From an uncultured Acetobacterium sp. (GTDB taxonomy: Bacteria; Bacillota; Clostridia; Eubacteriales; Eubacteriaceae): 64,000 nt of DNA. Position 1 is the first letter of the stretch. Each line of letters opens with the position of its first letter. The stretch spans positions 3,870,736 to 3,934,735 of the forward strand of contig NZ_OY760905.1 in the NCBI RefSeq assembly GCF_963664135.1, written 5' to 3'. Below are positions 26,854 to 47,445 of this stretch, one piece after another. Both the position numbers and the translations under genes were made by a program. The notes below the pieces were generated by a model. It saw only the letters and a list, made by a program, of their open reading frames with translations, was not told where the DNA came from and made no database searches.

Positions 26854-26913
26854 TTGACAAAAGAAAAATCATCTAATATAATAATCATACCAAACATATA
26901 GGAGATATATGTT
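26854..26913 (+). promoter_or_regulatory. promoter and CymR-like operator of the corrinoid methyltransferase operon
   Basis: TTGACA (26854-26859), 17 bases, TATAAT (26877-26882). Thirteen bases further, CATAT-N7-ATATG (26895-26911), extended to AACATAT/ATATGTT, is the most symmetrical copy of the operator. The same arrangement is found at cysK and metY, so this methyltransferase operon is probably repressed when cysteine is abundant. Confidence 0.8.
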
Positions 26914-34094: not shown

Positions 34095-34464
34095 TTACTG
34101 ATTTACTTTTTGACCACAACTGAGACAGAATTTTGCACAGGAGGGAAGTTTTTCACCACAGTTTAAACAGAATGCGGCGGTATTTACTTTTTGGCCGCTT
34201 TGCAGACAAAATTTTGAACCCGCTGGAATTGTGGCGTTGCAACTTCCGCAAACCGTTGTGTTTTGACTACTGGTCGGTTGGTGACTGGGCTGAGTATTTT
34301 GAGAGGGATTTCCCATGTTGTTATGTTGGGTACGTCTTCCGCTTCCAGAACCAGAATCGAGCATATCAAACATATTTCTGAATAGCCCTTTTTTTATAGT
34401 GACTGCTGCCCTGATTTCCACTTTTATAATGTTTACCCTTTGATGACCTTGATGAACAACTCAT
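34095..34464 (-). pseudogene. zinc-ribbon protein with frameshift at a run of seven A
   Basis: ATG 34464 has a good ribosome site (AGAGGTG) and encodes a Ser/Lys-rich start (MSCSSRSSKGKHYKSG). At the run of seven A (complement of 34389-34395) the frame must shift by one base to enter the long frame with GLFRNMFDML, a Gln/Ser/Asn-rich linker and two zinc ribbons. The second ribbon is complete (CLNCGEKLP, FCLSCGQKV). The first has CLQSG where the second Cys pair should be. It may be a regulatory partner of the adjacent kinase remnant. Confidence 0.7.
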
Positions 34465-34649
34465 TTTTCGCACCTCTTTTTAATACGATTTTAGTTAGTT
34501 CTAATTTATAGTATCAAACCTGTTTTCATCAAGAGGATTAACAAAATTAAGTTTTAACGTAATTCTGGATTTAACGAGAGAATAGGTAAGTTAAGGTGTA
34601 AAGAATTTGAAAAACTATAAAAAAAATATTAAAAACCACTGAAAAAATG

Positions 34650-34701
34650 TTGACAAATAAATAGTGATCATGTATCATATCAAACATATAGGAAATATAT
34701 G
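34650..34701 (+). promoter_or_regulatory. promoter and CymR-like operator before the Cys-rich leader and metY
   Basis: TTGACA (34650-34655), 17 bases, TATCAT (34673-34678), then CATAT-N7-ATATG (34685-34701) with N7 reading AGGAAAT. Nearly the same sequence stands before the corrinoid operon at 26895-26911. Confidence 0.8.
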
Positions 34702-34728
34702 AAATTAAAATTTAGGAGGCAAAGCAAT

Positions 34729-34821
34729 ATGTTAAACAGTGAATTATGCATTTCAAATGAGAGAGTTTTATGCATGTGTTGTAGCAGAAATAATTATCAG
34801 TATTCTTGCATGTCAAAATAA
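34729..34821 (+). CDS. cysteine-rich leader peptide upstream of metY
   Basis: A 30-codon ORF with an excellent ribosome site (AGGAGG, 9 bases before ATG 34729). Cys occurs at positions 7, 15, 17, 18 and 27, with the cluster LCMCC in the middle, and Met at 16 and 28. It ends with TAA at 34819, about 70 to 190 bases before the possible metY starts. Stalling of ribosomes at Cys codons when charged tRNA-Cys is low is the mechanism of known Cys attenuators in actinobacteria. The same logic here is inference. The following region contains possible pairings (AAGATG near 34819 with CATCTT near 34886) that could mask the metY ribosome site. No clear terminator was found. Confidence 0.65.
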   Translation: MLNSELCISNERVLCMCCSRNNYQYSCMSK

Positions 34822-35006
34822 GATGTTGCATTTGTCGTTATAATGAAAAGTAATTTCATGTGAATATTATTAGGAGAGGAGTTGCATCTTTGAGCAAATC
34901 AAAAGAAAGTTTCTTTAAAAGGATATTCAAAAGTAATCAGAATGGTAACAATAAAAACAACATAGAAAATAATCAAAATAAAGAAAGAAATGAGAGGTTG
35001 ACAAAC

Positions 35007-36290
35007 GTGAGCGAAAGAAAATTAGGATTCGATACTTTACAGGTACATGCAGGACAGACCCCTGACCCAGTAACCGGAGCAAGAGCAGTTCCAATTTATC
35101 AAACTACATCTTATGTATTTAAAGATACTGCCGAAGCAGAAGGACGTTTCGCATTAACAAACGCTGGAAACATTTATTCAAGACTGACAAATCCAACAAC
35201 CGATGCTTTTGAGCAACGGGTTGCAGCTCTTGAAGGTGGTTCAGCCGGCTTAGCAACAGCATCTGGTGCAGCCGCGATTACGTATTCGATTCAGAATGTT
35301 GCCAGCGCTGGCGATGAAATTGTCGCAGCGAGCACACTGTACGGTGGAACCTATCATTTATTTGCAGAAACATTACCAAAGTTTGGAATCACGACAATCT
35401 TTGTTGATCCTGATGATCCGGAAAATTTCAGAAAAGCAATTACTGACAAAACCAAAGCAATCTTTATTGAAACCCTTGGTAATCCTGGCATCAATATTAT
35501 CGACTTTGATGCAGTTGGAGAAATTGCAGCCGAAAATAAAGTGCCTTTGATTGTTGACAACACGTTTGCAACCCCTTATTTATTTAACCCATTAGAACAT
35601 GGCGCAAACGTCGTTGTTCATTCGGCCACCAAATTTATTGGCGGTCATGGTACATCGATTGGCGGCATCATTGTAGATGGCGGAAACTTTGACTGGACCA
35701 GCGGACGATTCCCAGATTTTACGACACCAGATAAAAGCTATAATGGGATAACTTATTCTGATCTGGGTCCAGTTGCTTATGCAGTTAAGATCAGAGCTCA
35801 ACTTTTAAGAGATACTGGAGCAAGCTTAGCACCACTTAATGCATTCCTATTTTTACAAGGACTTGAGTCATTATCACTGCGTGTTCAAAAACATGTTGCC
35901 AATACGAAAAAAATTGTCGAATATCTGGAAAACAGCCCAAAAGTCAAAACAGTTAATTATCCGGGACTTAAATCAAATAAATACTATGATCTTGGTCAAA
36001 AATATCTGCCCCTCGGTTCTGGTTCTATTTTCACATTTTCAATTAATGGAACAATTGATCAGGCGAAGAAGTTCATTGACAGCTTGGAAATTTTCTCTCA
36101 ATTAGCTAATGTTGCAGATGCAAAATCCCTGGTTATTCATCCTGCTTCAACTACCCATCAACAGTTGAGCCCCGAAGAACAAGCAGCAGCTGGATTCCCG
36201 CCAGAAGTAATTCGTTTATCCATCGGTGTTGAGGATGTCGATGATTTAATTTATGATATTGATCAGGCTTTAAACAAAGCAATTAACTAA
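35007..36290 (+). CDS. metY: O-acetylhomoserine sulfhydrylase
   Basis: The 427-residue Cys/Met-metabolism PLP enzyme joins O-acetylhomoserine and sulfide to homocysteine. Family motifs: [11 protein letters not shown] near the start, YSRLTNPT, and the PLP-Lys in [10 protein letters not shown]. Length fits MetY rather than the shorter lyases. The usual N-terminus begins at GTG 35007 ([15 protein letters not shown]), which has GAGAGG upstream. In-frame TTG 34890 with AGGAGAGGAG would add a 39-residue Asn/Lys-rich extension, and GTG 34860 more. The real start needs testing because it decides how the leader ORF could act. Confidence 0.9.
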
Positions 36291-36330: not shown

Positions 36331-36370
36331 ACATCTGCTGTTAATGGCAAAGCAGCAGATGTTTTCTTTT
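36331..36370 (+). terminator. terminator after metY
   Basis: ACATCTGCTG (36331-36340) pairs with CAGCAGATGT (36353-36362), followed by a T-rich tract. Confidence 0.8.
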
Positions 36371-36390
36371 CGGGCAGGCATCATCCCACT

Positions 36391-47393: not shown

Positions 47394-47445
47394 TTGACAA
47401 GAGACTTATGATCGTTTAAAATATAAATCATATAGGAAAACTATG
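47394..47445 (+). promoter_or_regulatory. promoter and CymR-like operator of the GATase/PLP/ferredoxin operon
   Basis: TTGACA (47394-47399), 17 bases, TAAAAT (47417-47422), then CATAT-N7-CTATG (47429-47445) with N7 reading AGGAAAA. Confidence 0.78.

Follow-up and report, generated by a model that had tools for sequence, protein, structure and literature searches.

A conserved cysteine-codon leader ORF before metY in Acetobacterium and a broader set of candidate metY leader peptides in Clostridia

The usual view is that Firmicutes detect a shortage of amino acids by T-boxes and riboswitches. For aminoacyl-tRNA-synthetase genes of this phylum, PMC1262725 gives 'none by classical attenuation', and it predicts Cys-codon leaders without terminators for the cys operons of Mycobacterium and Propionibacterium and for cbs of Bifidobacterium. 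The mycobacterial polycysteine leaders were put to the test by Canestrari 2020, as told in PMC9031893 and PMC9094748. In Rhodobacterales, according to PMC8632094, cysS is preceded by an upstream Cys uORF with a terminator (motif uORFC-8-2). The original prediction for the locus analyzed here held that known Cys leaders are from actinobacteria; they are indeed known there, but the statement is incomplete, given the uORF of Rhodobacterales cysS (PMC8632094) and the Cys-rich ORFs that we found before metY in many Clostridia. Among the matches listed in word searches of the open-licence literature, none describes a Cys leader in Firmicutes or Acetobacterium. Cys leaders as such are already known from actinobacteria and Rhodobacterales; what appears to be new here, judged by sequence, is a conserved Cys leader ORF of metY.

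The locus lies in a stretch of 64,000 nucleotides from an uncultured Acetobacterium sp. (hereafter the window), the positions of which are used in Table 1. The original prediction described an ORF with a good ribosome site and five Cys codons at this place; frame, coordinates, AGGAGG and Cys codons all match, as does the central Leu-Cys-Met-Cys-Cys cluster, in which CMCC corresponds to codons 15–18. The Cys excess that it called striking was confirmed: the probability of at least five Cys in 29 residues is 9e-6 at the Cys frequency of window proteins (0.98% of residues, taken from 22 proteins) and 6e-4 at local base composition. Among the 42 SD-preceded ORFs of 15–60 codons on both strands of the window, the leader ORF is the only one with at least five Cys. 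With E up to 1 allowed, its peptide hit no family in Pfam or NCBIfam, and Rfam gave 0 matches in the window at gathering score, T-box included.

Table 1 Positions of features at the metY locus (window coordinates).
Feature	Position	Strand	Basis or remark
Sigma-70-like promoter TTGACA-17-TATCAT	34650..34678	+	Sequence; -35 hexamer kept in 8/8 aligned relatives
Palindrome CATATAGGAAATATATG, candidate operator just 3' of the -10	34685..34701	+	Few changes across eight leaders
Shine-Dalgarno (SD) AGGAGG of leader ORF	34714..34719	+	Sequence
P1 5' strand (end of SD, spacer, start of ATG)	34718..34730	+	RNAalifold
Leader ORF, 30 aa, MLNSELCISNERVLCMCCSRNNYQYSCMSK, Cys codons 7, 15, 17, 18, 27	34729..34821	+	Reading frame, alignment
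P1 3' strand, conserved block just 3' of leader stop	34823..34836	+	RNAalifold
H2 hairpin 5' strand	34859..34868	+	RNAalifold
SD-like GGAGAGGAG of long metY form, inside H2	34873..34881	+	Sequence, folding
In-frame TTG-started MetY extension	34890..35006	+	In frame in 6/8 genomes; strong SD
H2 hairpin 3' strand	34922..34931	+	RNAalifold
metY, O-acetylhomoserine sulfhydrylase, GTG start, SD GAGAGG at 34992-34997	35007..36290	+	TIGR01326, 643 bits vs cut-off 495

Conservation of the ORF was assessed across the genus. A metY of some kind is present in 18 of 19 Acetobacterium genomes and is at least 90% identical to the window metY in 10, eight of which carry the leader ORF. These eight leaders, 27 or 30 aa long, have 27 codons in common without any indel, and peptide identity to the window peptide falls from 90% down to 40% while Cys codons and SD are retained. 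Cys occupies 38 of the 40 cells of the five Cys columns (G015 has Ser15 and G013 has Tyr7 instead), CMCC is found in seven peptides and MCC in all eight, and Leu6, Met16, Cys17, Cys18 and Cys27 are invariant, with TGT/TGC changes at Cys18 and Cys27. The pooled pN/pS of the ORF over the eight leaders is 0.73, indicating weak constraint on the peptide overall. Mean conservation was 0.95 for the Cys columns versus 0.65 for the other 21 columns (permutation p 0.0015), and Cys7 and Cys27 alone, which lie outside the nucleotide-conserved core, gave a permutation p of 0.03; both p-values are optimistic because the aligned leaders share ancestry (G016 and G004 are identical in all 27 codons). The original prediction had named lack of conservation of the frame or Cys codons in relatives as its refutation; the comparison showed both kept in 8 of the 10 genomes.

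A profile built from seven leaders recovered the same eight genomes among 40 genomes of the family, with E 2.1e-13 or better. All nine weaker matches (E 0.008 and up) were inspected and discarded as chance matches in or against other genes, and so were two further matches from the genus comparison, L009/L010, which fall within other genes. G005 and G007, the two leader-less genomes, likewise have this kind of promoter and the palindrome CATATAGGAAATATATG, and the leader is dispensable in both. Compared with its close relative G014, G005 is missing ~325 bases between the leader start region and metY, so that the leader looks deleted there.

The original prediction also placed a sulfur-regulated promoter before the ORF. 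The promoter-like motif and the palindrome are present (Table 1), but 'sulfur-regulated' goes further than they do: at two mismatches the palindrome had 6 matches genome-wide versus 4 for a control pattern, and no regulator was identified. Within the window, copies lie at 26895–26911 (one mismatch, before a corrinoid-protein operon) and 47429–47445 (two mismatches). The palindrome CATATAGGANATATATG stands 3' of the -10 of both the corrinoid-protein operon and metY, and a weaker copy, with two mismatches and no excess over the control, precedes a glutamine-amidotransferase/Cys-Met enzyme pair.

RNA folding of the aligned leaders was explored with RNAalifold, which returned helices P1 and H2 unprompted. 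P1 is predicted to cover the leader's own ribosome site, and H2 the upstream ribosome site of metY. Compared with column-shuffled alignments, the P1 stretch had a z-score of -3.3 with 0 of 300 as good (1 of 300 without G013), and the H2 stretch a z-score of -3.8 with 3 of 300 as good (7 sequences, G014 excluded); no conserved structure was found in the ORF interior (z -0.4, 85 of 300 as good). Pairing was possible in 99% of cells in P1 and 86% in H2, versus 35–51% for slid versions of the structure. The changes in P1 are one-sided, and neither paired cells (56 of 500 shuffles as high) nor covariation (122 of 500) stood out. Single-sequence z-scores of the P1 stretch ranged from -2.8 to +1.4 over the 8 sequences, among which that of G010 is short on the 5' side, its z being no test of P1. 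The distance from the ATG to the conserved block is 95–96 nt in all eight leaders, though the stop shifts by 9 nt. A second mini-ORF directly 3' of the leader stop, (M)RYCICH at 34822–34857, was rejected as a gene: its start codon is not conserved (reading ATA in the window and CTG in G014), its frame shifts relative to the leader, and P1 accounts for the conserved block. Similar mini-frames in relatives are probably a by-product of P1.

No terminator was found in 34400–35100 (0 found; 0.3 in shuffles) by a scanner covering loops of 3–8 only, so that the more probable mode of control at this locus is through translation or RNA stability rather than through classical termination. Ribosomes were modelled at the start, Cys7, Cys15, Cys17, Cys18 and the stop. 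In the window, predicted access of the H2-covered site was 0.21 in all seven ribosome-placement states, and in all eight leaders it rose only when the cover reached 40 nt beyond the block. The GTG site of the window had a predicted access of 0.36 in free RNA, 0.36 with the ribosome at Cys7–18 and 0.21 with the ribosome at the stop, and in 6 of 8 leaders it was lower with the ribosome at the stop than in free RNA. This effect is modest and, as modelled, would fit less MetY being made when Cys is ample. A simple translational switch was not borne out, as the placed ribosomes gave no clear opening of any metY ribosome site. On the basis of five of the eight leaders, the block 3' of the stop was rejected as an anti-ribosome-site acting on the GTG start of metY: in these five, the pairing ranks only 11 to 68 of 253–254 windows.

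The N-terminal extension of MetY is basic and Asn/Lys-rich (SKSKxxFFKRIFK) in 6 of 8 relatives. Its frame is broken by a one-base length difference in G004 and by stops in G013, where metY must therefore start at the equivalent of the 35007 GTG. H2 would control the long MetY form only. At the other end of the gene, a hairpin ACATCTGCTG..CAGCAGATGT with a T-rich tail lies 3' of metY (36331–36372) at 7 of 10 loci, window included, and is absent from the output of the simple scanner. It may separate metY from metA, and genes further down may thus be off the metY transcript.

Other metY-type loci of the genus were searched for similar arrangements. Twenty were fetched, and among the 17 other loci scanned a Cys-rich ORF was detected at L037 of G018 only. 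There, the leader MKARKLEKLNLSMCCCMPVGMFNCCTINIKKIL (1285–1386, 5 Cys in 33 codons) stands before another (third) metY-like gene (PF01053), and a 12-pair terminator-like hairpin follows at 1407–1436 (1 found; 0.1 in shuffles), then the gene at 1492. No competing antiterminator was demonstrated in L037 (fold z -0.9). A search of the family with its leader peptide gave a match in 1 of 40 genomes, two weak matches (L298/L299) being chance ones inside other genes, and the counterpart region in G014 (L040) is without the ORF. An attenuator-like layout also occurs at L241 and L257: the leader ORF there contains TACTCCCGGGC, the complement of the 5' arm of a hairpin that a T-run follows; in L241 the predicted duplex with the hairpin arm is 12-bp at -25 kcal/mol, and the simple scanner omits that hairpin. 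The leader ORF of both loci reads ..MCMRMLYSRA.., and the opposing hairpin is terminator-like.

We then surveyed 190 metY upstream regions, namely the best 80 of 582 metY relatives, 30 loci and 80 further stretches. Seven of the regions have fewer than 330 bases, and two agree completely over 200 bases. The set is non-random: its last 110 regions come from the top matches to a single clostridial MetY (L110), some genomes occur twice, and one region is from Acetobacterium (L076). Cys-rich ORFs (SD-preceded, 8–60 codons, at least 3 Cys, within 400 nt) were present before metY in 36 of the 190 regions versus 5 when the reverse strand was scanned. On reading, no fewer than four of the 36 (L089, L129, L174 and L214) resemble the terminal parts of Rrf2-type genes, and some of the rest do not convince. 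Two motifs were counted in the same set that yielded them: CGAATGTGY (Arg-Met-Cys) in 32 regions and N[FWYH][RH]xGRM in 34 (L114 to L263), each with 0 on the reverse strand. Of the latter, 33 fit N[FWY]RxGRM. The last Arg of NxRxGRM is encoded by CGA in 34 of 34, while six different Arg codons, and in one case His, occur at the first Arg position; GRM is followed by a stop codon in 16, a Cys codon in 15 and some other codon in 3. The union of the three criteria covered 65 of 190 regions versus 5 in reverse, with 55 versus 3 in the 110 clostridial regions and 10 versus 2 in the other 80 (GRM contributing 1 of the 10), indicating that the pattern is mainly clostridial. A further sequence, ATAGGAAATAT, occurs in 9 of the 190 regions and 0 in the reversed control.

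A profile of 23 GRM peptides had matches in 41 of 391 genomes of the class at E 0.01, many of which had also supplied the profile. At E 1e-4 it matched 38 places in 36 genomes: 34 before metY, two before NlpA lipoprotein genes, and two (G298 and G361) outside the inspected set. At L279 and L289, GRM leaders immediately precede lipoprotein genes of the NlpA (MetQ-like) type, with an ABC-ATPase-like frame following in L279 by reading. Tandem leaders were seen at L197, L198, L201, L228 and L188, where a distal Met/Cys-rich ORF (e.g. MMWMCMWICQMC) and a proximal GRM ORF precede metY, in some with a hairpin between the two ORFs by reading. In L165 and L183, an Rrf2-family gene lies upstream of leader and metY, and a cysK-like frame comes after metY (again by reading). 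The L110 peptide, used as a query against 391 genomes, had a single doubtful match. Ten leader peptides had no match in NCBIfam at E 0.1, 20 leader loci had none in Rfam, and no shared RNA structure was found between motif and metY in 31 GRM leaders. Word searches of the open-licence literature, where the motif may be described without these letters, found no description of an NxRxGRM leader; among the matches listed for GRM-motif letter strings, FGRMC occurs in Bifidobacterium RNA polymerase and the others are unrelated by title.

As for the relation of the window ORF to these leaders, N[FWY]RxGRM is absent from the eight genus leaders, the GRM profile found no match in G000, and comparison of the window leader with that profile gave no similarity (hhalign probability 1.2%). 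L179, from the same order as the window genome, has 16 of 17 operator bases identical, and its MFIIRKRQKENYHNGRMYMCCIYINKTQ unites NGRM with MCC. Common descent of the window ORF and the GRM leaders is possible, and NxRxGRM is a candidate for a new class of arrest peptide. We tentatively propose, at somewhat less than even odds, that Clostridia run homocysteine synthesis through a broad, unnamed set of leader peptides, in which the NxRxGRM class (CGA Arg, then Cys or stop; before metY and sometimes MetQ-like NlpA genes) would stall the ribosome according to sulfur amino-acid status, and the window Cys leader would be a derived member whose GRM decayed while Cys codons took over.

For the window ORF itself, we favor, with a probability of roughly 0.6, a leader peptide whose translation tunes metY expression to how much cysteinyl-tRNA is available. 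The leader ORF would be translated, and ribosomes would pause at its Cys codons when Cys-tRNA is short; pausing would alter the use of the leader RNA and of downstream ribosome sites so that more MetY is made, sulfide would be fixed into homocysteine, and this would be carried on to cysteine by cystathionine-lyase- and cystathionine-synthase-like genes further downstream. The features behind this reading are the SD-led ORF, its conserved frame and Cys codons, and the flanking helices P1 and H2. That the ORF is the leader peptide of metY is well supported. The original prediction went on to a translational sensor of charged tRNA-Cys; the sensing of tRNA-Cys is suggested by codon content and conservation, and the translational switch was not reproduced by folding. 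The part for tRNA-Met that it raised as a possibility would concern the invariant Met16. In favor of the Cys-tRNA reading we count the conserved Cys columns, P1 and H2 against shuffles, the G018 leader with its hairpin, the 36 of 190 versus 5 in the survey and the L241/L257 complementarity. Against it we count the two leader-less genomes, the Ser15 and Tyr7 exceptions, the lack of a terminator in the search, the unchanged H2 site, the one-sided P1 changes, L037 being the only case among 17 other loci, and the hairpin after metY.

Much of the same evidence bears on other explanations. A nascent-chain arrest peptide, whose sequence in the exit tunnel rather than the Cys-tRNA supply would stall the ribosome on a sulfur metabolite (Cys, Met, SAM or homocysteine), would account for the invariance of Leu6 and Met16 beside Cys17, Cys18 and Cys27 and fits with NxRxGRM in many clostridial metY leaders, 16 of 34 of them ending directly at the stop, and with the pairing of NGRM and MCC in L179 behind a nearly identical operator. 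The window peptide, however, is without GRM and has no similarity to the profile, and most of its residues vary (pN/pS 0.73), so we regard this explanation as unlikely. The retention of MCC in all eight peptides and CMCC in seven would also suit a small functional Cys-rich protein that binds a metal or thiol and is co-transcribed with metY by chance. Nonsynonymous drift elsewhere in the peptide, its absence from two genomes and from Pfam and NCBIfam, and the inclusion of its ribosome site in a conserved RNA helix make such a protein improbable.

Slightly less probable again is that the RNA helices are the regulator, through a binding protein, an RNA or a ligand, with the ORF incidental. P1 and H2 do score better than shuffled alignments, and the ATG-to-block spacing holds in all eight leaders despite the 9-nt movement of the stop; yet the window has no Rfam match, the reading frame and its Cys codons persist alongside synonymous changes, and the ORF interior is without conserved structure (z -0.4). 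A chance ORF in the 5' leader, conserved through recent ancestry alone, is very improbable. The restriction of window-type metY to 10 of 19 genus genomes, two of them without the ORF, would agree with it, but peptide identity drops to 40% without an indel while the SD and the Cys codons persist. The Cys-tRNA reading is the one we retain. If true, a Cys leader in an acetogen together with the wider set of metY leaders would amount to ribosome-based sensing of sulfur amino acids in Clostridia, and the GRM motif would be a new candidate metabolite-sensing arrest peptide. For acetogens in gas fermentation, the leader would point to a control point of sulfur assimilation.

Compared with the mycobacterial polycysteine sORFs, the window ORF is alike in being a short multi-Cys-codon ORF before sulfur-assimilation genes with no obvious terminator. 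In contrast to those sORFs, which are leaderless and have their Cys run near the stop, the window ORF is SD-led with ~50 nt between the predicted -10 and the ATG and has scattered Cys with a central CMCC, only Cys27 lying near the stop; phylum, target (metY) and the P1 and H2 helices differ as well. With uORFC-8-2 of Rhodobacterales it has in common an AUG-started uORF with neighbouring Cys codons in mid-peptide, whereas that uORF has a terminator and precedes a Cys-tRNA synthetase gene, neither of which applies to the window (no terminator found, loops 3–8). The L037 leader of G018 shares genus, enzyme family and Cys codons with the window ORF and differs in its terminator-like hairpin, its dissimilar peptide and its occurrence in 1 of 40 family genomes. 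The clostridial NxRxGRM leaders share target gene and place, often with Cys codons behind GRM, but their motif is missing from the window ORF and 16 of 34 stop right after GRM. The T-box (Rfam RF00230) likewise senses tRNA charging; it has 13 matches in the window's genome, 8 of them over the cut-off and none in the window. The locus shares with ribosome-mediated attenuators an SD-preceded short ORF, predicted to be translated, upstream of a biosynthetic gene, and codons for an amino acid of the pathway that are enriched and conserved amid drift, this amino acid, cysteine, lying beyond the homocysteine that metY makes.
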